34,964 nt of DNA from contig JAHDEM010000025.1 of the NCBI GenBank assembly GCA_020628895.1, positions 1 to 34,964 of the forward strand, read 5' to 3'. Shown here piece by piece: positions 16,623-29,019 of the stretch. The notes beneath the pieces are model-generated. The model saw only the letters and a program-made list of their open reading frames with translations, did no database searches and was not told the DNA's origin. The translations under genes and the position numbers were made by a program. The DNA comes from Candidatus Endobugula sp. (GTDB taxonomy: Bacteria > Pseudomonadota > Gammaproteobacteria > Pseudomonadales > Cellvibrionaceae). Position 1 is the first letter of the stretch, and every line of letters begins with the position of its first letter.

Positions 16623-16646
16623 TTGAATATCTCCTTTGTTCCACAT

Positions 16647-16676
16647 AATAACAAATTGTAACTACAATTTGTTATT
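16647..16676 (-). promoter_or_regulatory. palindromic operator candidate for brnTA
   Basis: A perfect 14-base inverted repeat (16647-16660 and 16663-16676) with a 2-base centre lies 10 bases upstream of the brnT ribosome site. BrnA is a dimeric DNA-binding protein that autorepresses, so this is the expected place and form for its operator. It is AT-rich and may also overlap the promoter. It is not followed by a U tract, so a terminator role for the upstream permease gene is unlikely. Confidence 0.6.
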
Positions 16677-16687
16677 ACTTTATTAAA

Positions 16688-21935: not shown

Positions 21936-23006
21936 TTACGTAGGCAGGCGTCCGCATTGTGAAAGTAATTGTTGCCAATGCTGGGTATGCTCTGTGATGG
22001 CATGTTCGAATCTCTTCCATTCACTATTTTCTGATGTATAAACATGATCCCAAAAAGTAGTAAATTCACTTTTTGCTGGCAGTGCTGCTTGGAGCTTATC
22101 AATTAATAGTAGGGTTTTCTGCGTTTGTTGATATAGCTTTGATAAAATCGGTTGTACCTGCCCAATATAATATTTTTTAAATACCTGCTCCACTATTGCA
22201 AATTGTGAGTTAGGGGTTTGTTGATAGCACAGTGGTTTTTTAGATAATCGTTGTTCAATCAGTTTGTCGGCGTGATTTAATGTTTTAATGGCTGTTGCCA
22301 TAGTTAACCTAAGCTCTCCAATATATTTTCGTTTTGCTAGTGTCTCGTATTGTAATGCGAGAGCAGTTTTGTCCATACTTGGTTTGCTTAACCAGCTGTT
22401 TAAATATTCTAATGCACTAATTAATTCGGTAGGGGCGTTAGATAATGATTCACCATTGAGTGGCTGTGTCCCTAAGGAAAACAAAAAACTCATCTCTTCA
22501 GTGGCAAAAATCGCATTCCAACGTATCTGCCCTTGATAGGTTTCTTTATGCTTTATAGCGGTTTGTAATATTTCTTGTAGGGGAGAGCTGTCCTCTAGGA
22601 TAGCTTGGCAACGTTTCGCGAGGGCTAAAAATTGCTCCTCGTACAATAAGGAATGATAGCCTGTCATCAGTTTTCCTAAGCTGCTGTTTCGTTCACCGAT
22701 TAACCGCTGTAGGTCGCAAGTGGATAGCTGAAAAAACTGCATGATATTAATATCTGCATCAGGAATGTCGTATAACAATATCGATTTATTGGGGTACCAA
22801 TTAAGCGATTTTTCCGGAAGATTTTTAAAGCGATCTACTTCTAAACTATTAGACAAACGATAAAGATAGTTATCGAAGATATCTTCTGTAGTTTCTTCTG
22901 AATAACAACCAGCCAATACGAAAGTGACGCATAACACAATACCTCTCGCCCAAGATAACTTAAGTGATGCTTGTTTAAAAAGTATGACCATATTTAATCT
23001 ATTCAT
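21936..23006 (-). CDS. DUF3080 lipoprotein
   Basis: Predicted outer- or inner-membrane lipoprotein of 356 residues. After a basic N-terminus and hydrophobic stretch there is a lipobox LAGC with Cys34. The mature part has family marks including FDNYLYRLSNSL and the well conserved block STCDLQRLIGERNSSLGKLM, which I recognise as DUF3080. The start at 23006 overlaps the regulator stop in ATGAATAG; an in-frame ATG at 22991 is an alternative, while the longer frame upstream lies within the MerR gene. It is coupled to a MerR regulator and faces a photolyase, an arrangement that hints at light-linked expression. No activity is known. Confidence 0.82.
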   Translation of the reverse strand: MNRLNMVILFKQASLKLSWARGIVLCVTFVLAGCYSEETTEDIFDNYLYRLSNSLEVDRFKNLPEKSLNWYPNKSILLYDIPDADINIMQFFQLSTCDLQRLIGERNSSLGKLMTGYHSLLYEEQFLALAKRCQAILEDSSPLQEILQTAIKHKETYQGQIRWNAIFATEEMSFLFSLGTQPLNGESLSNAPTELISALEYLNSWLSKPSMDKTALALQYETLAKRKYIGELRLTMATAIKTLNHADKLIEQRLSKKPLCYQQTPNSQFAIVEQVFKKYYIGQVQPILSKLYQQTQKTLLLIDKLQAALPAKSEFTTFWDHVYTSENSEWKRFEHAITEHTQHWQQLLSQCGRLPT

Positions 23007-23964
23007 CCAATACCGCTTGTAAGGCTTTTTCCAGTAGGTGTCTGGCTTGGTTCGTGTACGAATAAATACAAGCATGTATGGCGGCTTGCCTCCAATTTTC
23101 TGCTCCACAGGTTTTGCTATAAGCCTCAAAGGCATTGAGTCGTCTAATTAAGTCAGTCAGGTGTGGTGGGCATTCACAATTTAGTGTGGTCGATAAAGCC
23201 TCGGCCTCGATTAATGCTTCTTCACTGAAGTGTTTAGGGCGGCTGGTAGGAAGTGCTACATCAAATGCTTTATTGTCCCTATCGAGATCGGATAAATGCG
23301 TTTGTAGACGAAGTACTTTTTTAATTGTTTCATCCAAGTTAACCGTTTTAATACTCCCTGATAATACGGTGATCCCCTGTTTTTCTAATTCCTCAACTAA
23401 TGTTTTTTGGCAATACCAATATAAAACAATAATATGTATCTTTTGTTGGCTAATATTCAGCAGTGGCTGCATATGTTTTTGGTTTAACGATTCTAGCTGT
23501 ATGATTAATAAATCGGTATTTTCTAGAGCTGGCTGGTGTAACCACTGTTCAATAGCGTTGGTGTCTGAGCACTCGATCGCCAAATACGGGTAGCGTTTAT
23601 GATGCATCATAAAATGATGAGTTAATTCTGTACCAATAACGTGTGTTTTTAGGGTATGAGTAACAGAAGTTTCATGGGGGGTATTATCCCCCATATCTAC
23701 TAACAAACTGCTCAAGGTTTTCGTTGGTAACTTGGCAATATCGCCAATGCGCATTCCATGGTTTATGAGTTTTTTCAGTAACCGTAGATGATCAACATCC
23801 GTCATACTATACTCGCGTTGCCCTCCTTGGCTACGACTAGATGGTCCTAAGCCGTAACGGCGTTCCCACATTCGAAGTGTATTGGCATTTATCCCCGTCA
23901 TCCTCTCTACAGTACCAATGCTCATTAACCCTACAGGTTGACTTTGGTTTTTTTGTACACCCAT
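22999..23964 (-). CDS. MerR-family regulator, LitR/CarH-like layout without a recognisable B12 motif
   Basis: A 321-residue regulator with an N-terminal MerR winged helix (about 12-80): SIGTVERMTGINANTLRMWERRYG, R-SQGGQREYS and a following helix. The middle (about 80-215) looks like a Rossmann-type domain, as in the B12-binding light sensors LitR and CarH, but I see no DxHxxG cobalamin motif. Controlling photolyase genes is the known job of LitR-type proteins, and this gene lies between two photolyase loci. A start at the ATG 13 codons later (23925), with TAGGG before it, is also possible. It faces an intergenic region with two palindromes. It could sense another ligand or light through a partner. 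Confidence 0.85.
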   Translation of the reverse strand: MGVQKNQSQPVGLMSIGTVERMTGINANTLRMWERRYGLGPSSRSQGGQREYSMTDVDHLRLLKKLINHGMRIGDIAKLPTKTLSSLLVDMGDNTPHETSVTHTLKTHVIGTELTHHFMMHHKRYPYLAIECSDTNAIEQWLHQPALENTDLLIIQLESLNQKHMQPLLNISQQKIHIIVLYWYCQKTLVEELEKQGITVLSGSIKTVNLDETIKKVLRLQTHLSDLDRDNKAFDVALPTSRPKHFSEEALIEAEALSTTLNCECPPHLTDLIRRLNAFEAYSKTCGAENWRQAAIHACIYSYTNQARHLLEKALQAVLDE

Positions 23965-25173: not shown

Positions 25174-26502
25174 GTGTCACAATTACATAATGTCGGTTTA
25201 TATTGGATGACCAATGACCTGCGTATTGATGACAACTTAGCTTTAATACGCGCCTCAGCGCAGGTGAAACAACTCATCTGTGTGTACATCGTTGATCCCG
25301 CTTGGTTTGTCCCTAATCGCTATGGCTTAAAATCCATGGGAGAGCATCGATGCCGTTTTTTATACAACTCCTTAATTGAGTTAGATCAATCTCTTAAGCC
25401 GTTCGGGCAGCGTTTACTTGTAGAGTATCAAACACCAGTAATTGCTATAGAAAATCTGATTAAACAACACCATGTTGGAGCCATTTTTCGTAGTCAGAAT
25501 GCAGGCTACTATGAGAATCAACAGTGGAATGTATTGCAGCAAAAATATCCTGGTCTTCATTTCGAAGAAAGTGCTACTCACACGATTTTTTCCACATCCT
25601 CATTACCCTTTGATTTGCATGATCTACCGGGTAGTTTTTCGGCGTTTAGAAAAATAGTAGAGCCCTTAAAAGGTATAGAGCAGGCTAGTGCCGTGGAAAC
25701 TTTGCCCCCTCCACCAGAAGATGTTAGTTATAACGTTATTGAACATGGGTTAACACCTAATCTAAGTGATATAGCGTTCTCCTTTCCAAAAGGAGGAGCC
25801 TCTTATGCCAAACAACATCTGCACGATTATTTCAATTCAGAATTGCCAAGTACTTATAAGCAAACAAGGAACGCGTCAGATGGGTGGCAGCACTCAACAA
25901 AGTTTTCGTTTTGGTTGGCCAATGGCAATCTATCCGTTATACAAATATTAGTTGCGCTTCAAGAGTATGAAAATACCGTCTTAGCGAATGAATCGACAGG
26001 TTGGATCCGTTTCGAATTGCTCTGGCGAGAATACTTTCAATGGGTGGCCCATGCCTATCAAAAACAATTGTTTCTTTTTGGTGGTATTAAACGTAAAAAA
26101 CCACTCACCAGTTTCTATTCCGAACGTTTCCAACGCTGGTGTAATGGCAATACCCCTTACCCTTTAGTAAACGCATGTATGAAGCAACTTAATGCAACCG
26201 GTTATATGTCGAATCGAGGTCGGCAAATTGTGGCAAGTTGCCTAGTTAACGAATTGAATCTCGATTGGCGTTATGGCGCTGCTTACTTTGAACAACAGCT
26301 GACGGACTATGATGTCGCCTCTAACTGGGGAAATTGGCAATATTTAGCAGGGGTGGGTATGGACCCCAGAGGCAAAAGGCACTTTAACATCGATAAACAA
26401 ACGCAACTATACGATCCGGATAAAACATTTATCAACCAATGGGCAGCGGGAGAACCAAGCCACATGCTCGACAGCGTTGATGCGGCAGACTGGCCGCAAT
26501 GA
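25174..26502 (+). CDS. DASH-type cryptochrome/deoxyribodipyrimidine photolyase
   Basis: Flavin- and folate-dependent blue-light protein of 442 residues. CRY-DASH members repair cyclobutane dimers in single-stranded DNA and may also signal. Marks are the N-terminal photolyase domain (LYWMTNDLRIDDNLAL; VYIVDP), PGSFSAFRKIVEP, and the FAD domain with WIRFELLWREYFQW and YMSNRGRQIVASCLVNEL, YFEQQLTDYDVASNWGNWQYLAGVG and DPRGKRHFNI, the last being strongly DASH-like. The start is GTG at 25174, with AGAGGA 7 bases upstream. It probably shares a transcript with the Cys-rich gene 48 bases downstream. Having both FeS-type and DASH-type enzymes suggests life in sunlit water. Confidence 0.95.
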   Translation: MSQLHNVGLYWMTNDLRIDDNLALIRASAQVKQLICVYIVDPAWFVPNRYGLKSMGEHRCRFLYNSLIELDQSLKPFGQRLLVEYQTPVIAIENLIKQHHVGAIFRSQNAGYYENQQWNVLQQKYPGLHFEESATHTIFSTSSLPFDLHDLPGSFSAFRKIVEPLKGIEQASAVETLPPPPEDVSYNVIEHGLTPNLSDIAFSFPKGGASYAKQHLHDYFNSELPSTYKQTRNASDGWQHSTKFSFWLANGNLSVIQILVALQEYENTVLANESTGWIRFELLWREYFQWVAHAYQKQLFLFGGIKRKKPLTSFYSERFQRWCNGNTPYPLVNACMKQLNATGYMSNRGRQIVASCLVNELNLDWRYGAAYFEQQLTDYDVASNWGNWQYLAGVGMDPRGKRHFNIDKQTQLYDPDKTFINQWAAGEPSHMLDSVDAADWPQ

Positions 26503-26550
26503 TGTGATCAGCTTGATCATAAAACAAGAAATACAATAATGGGGGAAATA

Positions 26551-26748
26551 ATGAGTAACCAAAATAGGTCGACTAACGAACAAGAAGCAGGCAAGCGCTT
26601 ACCTTGCAGAGGGTGTACAAATTCTTGCGAAAACTACAACCATTGCAATGGAAAACTATGGCGTATGTCTTATGTTCCTTCGAATAAGTCGTTGAGTCTA
26701 GAACAGCTAATGCACACGCATAAAGATACCGCTGACCTGTTGGAATAA
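26551..26748 (+). CDS. 65-residue Cys-rich protein
   Basis: A small protein starting MSNQNRSTNEQEAG, with CRGCTNSCENYNHC (residues 19-32): four cysteines spaced C-x2-C-x3-C-x5-C, followed by NGKLWRM. This can hold one zinc ion or an iron-sulphur cluster; which cannot be told. I chose the second ATG, for which the GGGGGA within the first ATG region acts as ribosome site. It lies 48 bases after the DASH gene and directly before a strong terminator. I cannot name the family. The co-location suggests a role with the cryptochrome. Confidence 0.65.
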   Translation: MSNQNRSTNEQEAGKRLPCRGCTNSCENYNHCNGKLWRMSYVPSNKSLSLEQLMHTHKDTADLLE

Positions 26749-26758
26749 TGCCCCTTTA

Positions 26759-26810
26759 CCCCACCATTAAATACTGTAATAATATACAGTATTTAATGGT
26801 GGGGTTTTTT
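26759..26810 (+). terminator. strong intrinsic terminator (20-bp perfect stem, U6)
   Basis: A perfect 20-base stem (arms 26759-26778 and 26785-26804) with a 6-base loop is followed at once by six T residues. The stem ends in a C4/G4 base. It should end transcription of the DASH/Cys-rich unit. The next gene starts two bases after the T run, and its only possible ribosome site lies in the right arm, so the hairpin may also hide that site. Confidence 0.9.
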
Positions 26811-26811
26811 C

Positions 26812-28092
26812 GTGAATTTGCAGAATAAATTAGCCATTTTGGCCGATGCTGCCAAATATGATGCATCCTGTGCGAGTAGTGGATCGATTAAGCGCGATTC
26901 TAGGACAGGCAAGGGTGTGGGGTCCACTTCATCGGGTATGGGCATTTGCCATAGTTATGCGCCAGATGGTCGATGTATCTCTTTATTAAAAATACTACTG
27001 ACTAACTTTTGCATTTACGATTGTAGCTATTGTGTTAACCGTGCCTCTAGCCAGATAGAGCGAGCCCGTTTTACCGTCGATGAAGTCGTAAAACTAACAC
27101 TAGATTTTTATAAAAGAAATTACATCGAAGGCCTATTTTTAAGCTCAGGTATTATCCGTTCTTCAGATTACACCATGGAAAAGCTGGTCGATATTGCACG
27201 TACGCTAAGAGAGGTTCATCATTTTCGGGGGTATATTCACCTTAAAACTATTCCGGATGCGAGTTCCGAGTTATTACATCAGGCAGGCCTATATGCAGAT
27301 CGCCTTAGTATTAATATCGAGCTGCCCTCTAAGCAGTCGTTAGCCTTATACGCACCAGAAAAAAACCCTGTGACGATTCATCGTTCCATGGGAACCCTTA
27401 AAGAGCATATCGACGAATCCAAAGAAAGCCACCAACAACAAAAAAAGGCCAAATCAATCCCCAAGGCCAAAAAAACGCATCAGCAAAAAATAGTTTATTC
27501 ACCTGCCGGACAAAGCACACAGATGATTGTTGGGGCCGATGCTTCTACTGATAATAAAATATTAACACTCGCTAACCATTTATACGGAAAGTATCAAATG
27601 CGGCGAGTCTATTATTCTGCGTTCAGTCCTATTCCCGATTCCAGTCAAACCTTACCATTACAGGCGCCTCCACTATTGCGTGAGCATCGCCTTTATCAGG
27701 CGGATTGGCTGATTCGTTTTTACGGGTTTTCTGTGGATGAAATTAGCAGCCCTAATACACGCCACTCAGGCATGTTAGATTTAGATGTTGATCCCAAATT
27801 AGCTTGGGCACTAGAAAATCGGCATGTATTTCCAGTCGATATTAATCGTGCACCGTTAGAGATGTTATTGCGAGTACCAGGCATTGGTACGATTGGGGCC
27901 AATCGTATTATTCAGTCTCGCCGGTTCAAACGTTTGCGTTACAGTGATTTATCCAAATGTGGATTATCTGTCAAAAAGCTCGCTCTTTTTGTTGAGACTA
28001 TGGACTACTCACCGCCACCCAAGTCTTTGGAAATGGAAAACTTAAAAAACCATTTTATGAAGGGTGATTCCCCACAAATTGCATTGTTTTAA
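26812..28092 (+). CDS. putative DNA modification/repair radical SAM protein (TIGR03916 type)
   Basis: A 426-residue protein with the radical-SAM motif CIYDCSYC (Cys67, Cys71 and Cys74) within LKILLTNFCIYDCSYCVNRA. The barrel continues through LFLSSGI and LKTIP, and a helix-hairpin-helix DNA-binding motif, INRAPLEMLLRVPGIGTIGANRI, sits near residues 345-370. A Lys/Gln-rich insert lies about 195-230. The family occurs with DUF4130 proteins and, in many genomes, a UDG domain, which led to a proposed DNA repair or modification role; its chemistry is unknown. GTG at 26812 matches the family start MNLQNKLAILADAAKYD. Expression must pass, or begin inside, the hairpin immediately upstream. Confidence 0.9.
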   Translation: MNLQNKLAILADAAKYDASCASSGSIKRDSRTGKGVGSTSSGMGICHSYAPDGRCISLLKILLTNFCIYDCSYCVNRASSQIERARFTVDEVVKLTLDFYKRNYIEGLFLSSGIIRSSDYTMEKLVDIARTLREVHHFRGYIHLKTIPDASSELLHQAGLYADRLSINIELPSKQSLALYAPEKNPVTIHRSMGTLKEHIDESKESHQQQKKAKSIPKAKKTHQQKIVYSPAGQSTQMIVGADASTDNKILTLANHLYGKYQMRRVYYSAFSPIPDSSQTLPLQAPPLLREHRLYQADWLIRFYGFSVDEISSPNTRHSGMLDLDVDPKLAWALENRHVFPVDINRAPLEMLLRVPGIGTIGANRIIQSRRFKRLRYSDLSKCGLSVKKLALFVETMDYSPPPKSLEMENLKNHFMKGDSPQIALF

Positions 28093-28131: not shown

Positions 28132-29019
28132 ATGGTAGTAATAGAAGTGGATGGTTTTGAGCAATGGCGTAGTCATTCTCGTGAGCTGTTAAAGAGAAAA
28201 ATTTCACCCGAAAAGGTGACATGGTGCCAGCCTAGGTCGCAACAAACATTACTGGTTGGTGATAGTGATCAGCAGCTATTAATGCAGCCTGTTGTTTGCG
28301 AAAACCCTAAAATACCCCGTCAGTTTTTGTCCATTGCACAGCAAGTAGCTTGTTATCGCGACGATACTCGTTGGTCGTTACTCTACAGTATTGCATGGCG
28401 CTTGGTGTTTGAGGATAAATATCTGCTCAACCATAAAGTTGATCCGCAAGTGTCGGCATTATTCACCATGCGAAAATCTATTGGTCGCGATAAACATAAA
28501 ATGGAAGCATTTGTGCGGTTTCGTCAGATCAATATTTTCGACGAAAGCGACCACGATGGAAATGTAGAGTATTACCTATCATGGTTTGAACCGCAGCATT
28601 ATATCTTGCCACTAGTCACGCCATTTTTTGTTAAGCGTTTTTACAATATGCATTGGTCAATTCTTACTCCCGATACCTGTGCTCACTGGGATACGAAAAA
28701 TCTCACTTATACACAGGGTGTGAGTAAACCGTCAGATACAGTCGATAAACTAGAGGAATTATGGAAAGTTTATTATGCCAATATATTTAACCCTGCGCGG
28801 TTAAAACTAAAAGCTATGCAGAGCGAAATGCCTAAAAAATATTGGAAAAATCTACCAGAGGCCCCTTTAATTGCCGAGCTAAGTCGCTCGGCAGGTAAAC
28901 GCACCCATATCATGATAAACGAGCAAGAAACAACGCAAAACAGTAAAATTTCCCAGTCGCGATATGTGCAAAAGAGTCAAAAGATATTAAGAAACAACAG
29001 GGATATCGATAACATTTAA
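28132..29019 (+). CDS. TIGR03915-type putative DNA repair protein (DUF4130)
   Basis: A 295-residue partner of the radical-SAM protein 39 bases upstream. The family core is visible: WSLLYSIAWRLVFEDKYLL, a KSIGRDKHKMEAFVRFRQ block, LSWFEPQHYILPLVTPFFVKRF, WSILTPDTCAHWD, and WKVYYANIFNPARLKLKAMQ before MPKKYWKNLPEA. In many bacteria this domain is fused to a UdgX/uracil-DNA glycosylase-like domain at its C-terminus; here the last about 40 residues are only a polar tail, so no glycosylase is present. Function has been guessed as DNA lesion handling with the radical-SAM enzyme. Confidence 0.88.
   Translation: MVVIEVDGFEQWRSHSRELLKRKISPEKVTWCQPRSQQTLLVGDSDQQLLMQPVVCENPKIPRQFLSIAQQVACYRDDTRWSLLYSIAWRLVFEDKYLLNHKVDPQVSALFTMRKSIGRDKHKMEAFVRFRQINIFDESDHDGNVEYYLSWFEPQHYILPLVTPFFVKRFYNMHWSILTPDTCAHWDTKNLTYTQGVSKPSDTVDKLEELWKVYYANIFNPARLKLKAMQSEMPKKYWKNLPEAPLIAELSRSAGKRTHIMINEQETTQNSKISQSRYVQKSQKILRNNRDIDNI

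Follow-up and report, generated by a model that had tools for sequence, protein, structure and literature searches.

The radical-SAM gene and its partner in the window (the whole analysed stretch of DNA, 34,964 bases in length), a TIGR03916-TIGR03915 pair, are likely, judging from the nucleotide sequence, to be expressed from a LexA-controlled operator-promoter that lies within a hairpin, the hairpin shielding the pair from upstream transcription. The operator, the hairpin, the predicted occlusion of the ribosome site and the recurrence and co-variation of the structure in relatives were all computed. From these we infer the binding of LexA, the start point of the transcript, genuine termination of upstream transcription and a genuine block of translation.

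Gene neighbourhood and the start codon

The protein encoded by the radical-SAM gene (Table 1) scores over the curated cut-off of TIGR03916 and is thus a member of that family; it additionally shows a weak match to HHH_3. The GTG at 26812 is the first possible start, the stretch from the in-frame TAA at 26794 onwards offering no earlier start codon, and it is a credible one because the matches of relatives begin at residues 1-5 of the radical-SAM protein, the exceptions being a truncated match that begins at residue 42 and a broken match in genome G332. The latter (C1:2737913-2739045, minus strand) consists of two pieces whose open frames differ (84 and 399 aa), which a frameshift or the use of another start may explain.

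A co-directional DASH-family cryptochrome gene and a small Cys-rich ORF lie upstream. The ORF, whose stop codon is 9 nt 5' of the hairpin stem, has no match in Pfam or NCBIfam, and its relatives are seen in 23 of the 144 genomes of the family, its own genome counted. In one further locus (L371, genome G047) the relative of this ORF also adjoins a DASH cryptochrome gene, and the two products may work together. Near the cryptochrome gene, at 22999-23964 on the minus strand, is a MerR-type regulator (PF13411) that could be light-related; its CarH match reaches only 49.5 bits against a cut-off of 400. In relatives, DPRP photolyase-related genes are found upstream of the radical-SAM gene in three loci (L012, L014 and L021) and DASH cryptochrome matches in two (L018 and L020), and this repair-gene neighbourhood, combining photolyase-related genes with the radical-SAM gene, is a recurrent one.

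Table 1. Features of the radical-SAM gene pair and the region upstream of it
Feature	Position	Strand	Details and basis
DASH-family cryptochrome, upstream, co-directional	25174..26502	+	TIGR02765, 498.9 bits vs cut-off 317
Small Cys-rich ORF	26539..26748	+	69 aa, or 65 aa from ATG 26551; ORF call
-35-like hexamer TTTACC, weak	26755..26760	+	17 nt before -10-like site; consensus match only
Hairpin	26758..26805	+	arms 26758-26778 and 26785-26805, loop 26779-26784 (six nt); 21 perfect Watson-Crick pairs
LexA operator TACTGTAATAATATACAGTA, tip of hairpin	26772..26791	.	core CTGT 26774-26777 and ACAG 26786-26789; 21.7 bits
-10-like AATAAT after TGT (extended -10), inside operator	26778..26783	+	consensus match only
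Putative start of the SOS transcript	26789..26791	+	predicted from position of -10-like site
SD-like GGTGGGG, right arm	26798..26804	+	7 nt before GTG; sequence and opening-cost computation
T6 run, terminator-like structure	26805..26810	+	followed by C26811 and GTG 26812-26814
Radical-SAM gene, GTG start	26812..28092	+	TIGR03916 (rSAM_link_UDG), 574 bits vs cut-off 343.5
Partner gene	28132..29019	+	TIGR03915 / DUF4130, 210.4 bits vs cut-off 112.25; PF13566

The hairpin and its LexA operator

A reading of the letters alone (hereafter the sequence-only reading) had proposed a perfect 20-bp stem with a U6 end at 26810 before the GTG at 26812. The hairpin is real, and its stem is one pair longer, since A26758 pairs with the T that opens the T-run; the GGTGGGG that the same reading had picked out as the only purine-rich upstream bases is the only SD-like sequence and is located inside the right arm, as it had stated. 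A 21-bp stem followed by T6 on the plus strand, 9 nt after the upstream stop codon, has the make-up of an intrinsic terminator. The minimum free energy of the RNA from 26749 to 26850 is -38.8 kcal/mol versus -18.45 (sd 2.83) in 200 dinucleotide shuffles, none of which (0/200) folds as well. No other perfect stem in the window with a loop of 3-10 nt is as long, the next having 14 bp (16646-16677, loop of 4). The only strong matches of the hairpin in its own genome (89% complete) are itself and its own reverse complement, with the other nine of the 11 matches having E-values of 0.8-2.8; being single copy there, it is ruled out as a repeat or mobile element. No known RNA family is recognised, all 12 Rfam matches up to an E-value of 1 in 26400-27000 falling far under the gathering scores.

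The sequence-only reading had overlooked that the core of this hairpin, 26772-26791, is by its sequence a LexA (SOS) operator. When scored with a matrix derived from 59 distinct lexA, recN and recA operators only, collected from 30 searched genomes, TACTGTAATAATATACAGTA lies within the range of the training sites (13.4-22.8 bits, 5th-95th percentile), while the second-best site of the window reaches 7.9 bits. The bare pattern CTGT-N8-ACAG matches twice in the window against 0.44 expected. LexA itself is encoded in the same genome (G000:C9:122496-123098; 250 bits versus a cut-off of 110.95), in which the exact pattern TACTGT-N8-ACAG gives seven rows, two of them being the site in the window on its two strands, against four for a reversed control pattern.

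The operator encloses an extended -10-like site, with a weak -35-like hexamer further upstream; promoter-like matches are not enriched in this region relative to shuffles (36 against 39.6 expected). The sequence-only reading had offered three routes to expression of the radical-SAM gene, namely antitermination, a promoter within the hairpin giving an almost leaderless mRNA, or opening of the hairpin by a factor. Of these, a promoter in the hairpin is the favoured one, given that a LexA operator forms the core of the structure and overlaps the extended -10-like site, and nothing that we found requires antitermination or a hairpin-opening factor. The mRNA, though, is not expected to be almost leaderless: its predicted leader of about 21-23 nt includes the SD-like bases (opening cost 4.6-5.1 kcal/mol).

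Conservation of the operator upstream of the radical-SAM gene

An operator was called when at least seven of the eight core letters matched in the 160 nt preceding the gene. Among the 150 loci examined (L031, a match without the N-terminus, and L032, the second piece of the G050 match, were left out), 64 have an operator, or 63 distinct ones after collapsing L033 with L123, and 86 do not, the latter comprising 17 from genome searches and 69 of the 80 loci on named contigs. In the family of the window it is present in 25 of 28 loci (the misses being L016, L119 and L120), among the loci found by genome searches in 53 of 70, and among those on named contigs in 11 of 80. Most of the other named-contig loci belong to Alphaproteobacteria, Xanthomonadaceae and the like, the LexA motifs of which differ; at least one Burkholderiales locus (L047) also lacks the operator. 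Eleven of the 17 misses among the 70 loci are from family f35, with LexA scoring over the family cut-off in none of the 11 f35 genomes; the remaining six (L016, L119, L120, L145, L146 and L148) are from genomes with LexA.

We also analysed a second genus, which is probably Pseudomonas. Here the gene is present in 179 of 249 genomes, and 113 of these 179 along with three further genomes provided 116 upstream regions, every one of which (116/116) has the operator, at -32 to -38. The 116 regions were reduced to 115 distinct ones and to 84 after thinning, with L266 left out for insufficient flank.

Complementarity of the arms outside the operator

Whole-segment folding recovers a significant hairpin (p<=0.05) in 31 of 63 relatives, about half lacking one. 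As recA operators also scored on folding (12/25 at p<=0.05, with a mean z of -1.61), possibly because of tandem operators, we replaced this measure by the pairing of the arms. With ten positions considered on each side (K=10), the flanks outside the 20-bp operator form 4.19 Watson-Crick pairs versus 2.84 when right arms are exchanged between species (z 7.9, N=63), and runs of at least seven pairs, G-U allowed, are seen in 11 of the 63 sequences against 0.43 expected. Sliding the arms by 1-3 positions abolishes the signal (2.2-3.1 pairs versus 4.62 unslid, N=45). Restricting the set to one sequence per genus (27 genera) gives a mean z of 6.1, the lowest being 4.9. The result is replicated in the second genus, with 4.79 versus 3.41 pairs in 75 new thinned sequences (z 8.4). 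Thus the co-variation of the stem in relatives, which the sequence-only reading had proposed as a check, is borne out in both sets, though the nearest relative with the gene (L015), which is of the same genus as the window, carries the operator at -118 and lacks a hairpin of this kind. The arms of the window (L009) and of L017, L012, L323 and L365 differ in their letters, yet each pairs; L012 and L017 belong to one genus, and the folds of L009, L017 and L012 were computed.

Operators close to the start (-46 to -17; z 7.9, N=46) show strong flank pairing, which is absent from those farther from the start of the same gene (z 1.2, N=17); the limit of -46 was set after viewing the operator positions, and the second genus required no limit. 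At other operators of the same genomes it is likewise not seen (lexA, z -0.6, N=28; recN, z -1.2, N=21; recA, z 0.9, N=25), ruling out a general preference of LexA for dyad flanks. On the strength of these sequence comparisons, the extended dyad around the operator is probably selected. Two loci from Verrucomicrobiales and Sphingomonadales MAGs (L069 and L101), whose operators are probably chance matches, are included in the arm-pairing and whole-segment folding sets, in the first of the G-U/A-C counts given below and in the automatic orientation test; they are excluded from the arm-sliding and per-genus sets, from the orientation comparison with hand-assigned loci, and from the in-stem mismatch and opening-cost sets.

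A hairpin that protects against outside transcription is expected to be stronger beside a co-directional upstream gene. For near-start operators the mean folding z is -3.16 with co-directional neighbours (n=29) and -1.28 with divergent ones (n=16; p=0.001); the difference persists with genus means (22 and 10; p=0.005) and on removal of the window (p=0.0015). Orientation was assigned automatically for 49 loci, three of which were changed (L122, L135 and L136), and manually for 13 loci, on the basis of Pfam hits or long ORFs and with their hairpins known; the assignment for L013 is doubtful. The automatic orientations alone give p=0.004 with folding z and p 0.18 with simple pair counts, and omission of the window, L013 and the changed loci leaves 26 and 15 loci (p 0.0012). 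The co-directional neighbours include cryptochrome, DPRP photolyase-like, RecQ, carbonic anhydrase, LysR and glutamate-cysteine ligase genes.

RNA accommodates G-U pairs but DNA does not. The first set has 55 G-U and 50 A-C oppositions, and the second genus averages 1.19 and 1.11 per sequence, matching expectation; inside stems the counts are 43 and 29, for which swapped arms predict 18.1 and 16.6. These counts lean towards selection on RNA, short of proof; the argument for RNA draws on two observations, namely that other LexA operators show no pairing of their flanks and that the hairpin coincides with the ribosome site.

Predicted occlusion of the ribosome site

In the window, the computed cost of opening GGTGGGG is 18.7-21.4 kcal/mol for three assumed 5' ends of a read-through RNA, as against 4.6-5.1 for two assumed SOS RNAs. 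The suggestion of the sequence-only reading that transcripts from upstream would either stop or have the site sealed is in agreement with these predicted costs and with the terminator shape of the stem and T6. Across the sets we calculated the energy needed to open positions -14 to -4, comparing the native left flank with 40 shuffled versions. The values are 11.7 versus 5.9 kcal/mol shuffled in the close set (operators at -46 to -27, 28 loci; 20/28 at p<=0.05) and 10.1 versus 5.8 in the second genus (44/84 at p<=0.05); an RNA starting at the end of the operator costs 4.3 and 4.1 kcal/mol to open, respectively. For the seven operators nearer than 27 nt the difference is small (7.9 versus 6.2; 2/7, p 0.11). 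The controls, which exclude recA and operators nearer than 27 nt, show weak sequestration at close lexA operators (5.7 versus 4.4; 4/16, p 0.037) and at distant operators (6.3 versus 5.3; 5/16, p 0.017), and none at close recN operators (5.8 versus 5.5; 3/13, p 0.55). Among nine other examples chosen by eye the long RNA costs more to open in eight; in L129 the strong hairpin does not lock the ribosome site, because the long RNA costs less (1.0 versus 4.3).

Few relatives share the T-run. The sequence before the start is T-rich in only three of 115 regions of the second genus (L329, L342 and L343, the last with T6), and in the first set L114, identified by eye, is the only locus besides the window with such a run. 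Thus, termination looks like a local addition, and the hiding of the ribosome site like the shared function.

Proposed mechanism and alternative explanations

In the undamaged cell, LexA on 26772-26791 would keep the internal promoter off. An RNA made by polymerase that enters from the cryptochrome and small-ORF genes would contain both arms, and it would fold into the 21-bp stem and bring transcription to a stop at T6; in any RNA that reads through, GGTGGGG would be kept closed in the stem. Upon DNA damage, LexA would be cleaved and transcription would start in or just past the right half of the operator. The resulting SOS RNA, without the left arm, would form no hairpin and would offer its SD-like bases 7 nt before the GTG. 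On balance, we incline to the view that this is a recurrent two-level SOS element, in which the flanks are kept self-complementary with their letters being free to change, the DNA supplies the repressor site and the read-through RNA the translation lock, so that expression of the pair would be strictly confined to the SOS response.

The hairpin might instead be only the terminator of the cryptochrome/small-ORF operon, abutting a LexA promoter, with the hiding of the site as a by-product of tight spacing. A stem that is followed by T6 and has a stop codon 9 nt upstream is indeed typical of terminators; however, relatives keep paired arms without the T-run (as evident from the 3/115 in the second genus and from L114 in the first set), and the occlusion of the ribosome site by the left flank recurs in them, for which reasons we regard this explanation as unlikely. 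We consider it distinctly improbable that the dyad is an unselected product of mutational bias, having grown by template switching seeded by the operator. Such bias at palindromes is known in general, and the operator is itself strongly palindromic, but the operators of lexA, recN and recA and the far operators of the same gene show no flank pairing, and the hairpin is associated with co-directional genes upstream. The lexA/recN part of this control is weakened as those operators are less perfectly palindromic.

We attach very little probability to the extended dyad being a DNA site, either for a second dimeric protein or for a wider contact of LexA: the nearly symmetrical G-U and A-C mismatches would suit it, but the arms co-vary without a shared sequence, unlike a protein site, and other LexA operators are without dyad flanks. 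Even less credence is given to an antitermination or hairpin-opening factor by which the gene would be expressed from upstream transcription, perhaps under light control. The DASH cryptochrome upstream in the window and the DPRP genes upstream in L012, L014 and L021 would be in keeping with such control; yet the factor is unnecessary given a LexA promoter inside the hairpin, and the upstream genes vary widely while the operator stays.

Relationship to known systems

The LexA operator-promoter nested in the hairpin resembles other CTGT-N8-ACAG operator-promoters in its operator letters, its position just 5' of a repair gene and the -10-like site inside it. In contrast, the operators of this type at lexA, recN and recA in the 30 genomes have no extended complementary arms. 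In the read-through protection of the IS10 and IS50 transposases, a transcript that originates outside folds in such a way that its ribosome site is hidden, and the shorter transcript of the gene itself does not. The same arrangement is predicted in the window, with the site closed in the long RNA and open in the gene's own shorter RNA. However, in these elements the inverted repeat is supplied by the end of the mobile element, whereas the stem in the window has no such origin and precedes a chromosomal repair gene, with a LexA operator at its centre. Being single copy and having this operator, the element would work like IS10/IS50 protection without being a member of that class. The tisB/istR system is another SOS gene with an extra RNA-level lock, and shares with the window LexA control combined with a second lock in RNA; there, the SOS transcript itself is held, whereas the element in the window would hold only transcripts from elsewhere. 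For IS50, a putative LexA site is mentioned in PMC4265352. Among the titles and abstract openings of open-licence PubMed Central papers, we found none on a LexA operator forming a ribosome-site hairpin. By analogy, the operator-centred insulating hairpin may represent a new form of IS10/IS50-like read-through protection.

We take TIGR03916 to be equal to COG4277, for which the weak HHH_3 match offers some support, and the COG1573-COG4277 operon (UDG and a predicted helix-hairpin-helix protein) is very probably of the same gene family as the TIGR03916 pair. The accessible portion of PMC8565304 describes this operon as SOS-controlled in Bacteroidetes, and cites reports of its SOS control in Verrucomicrobia and Alphaproteobacteria. 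Thus, SOS regulation of the gene pair itself is not new, as it has been reported in other phyla. The operon described there would then share with the window a gene family under LexA, and differs in its LexA motifs and in that no hairpin is named in that portion of the text.

The proposed arrangement would account for an odd hairpin by placing operator, promoter, terminator and ribosome-site lock within about 55 bp, and would mean that the radical-SAM/DUF4130 pair, which is poorly understood, belongs to the SOS response in many Gammaproteobacteria and some Betaproteobacteria. If it is true, stray expression of TIGR03916-TIGR03915 would be harmful; bacteria apparently pay to keep the pair silent in the absence of DNA damage, which suggests that its activity is mutagenic or toxic. 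Arm complementarity outside the operator is a signature that could be sought at other repressor sites. Another kind of overlap is seen in the upstream regions of three recA genes (L241, L242 and L249), where the LexA operator lies directly before T-runs (ACAGTATTTTT) and may be a further instance of an operator doubling as a terminator.
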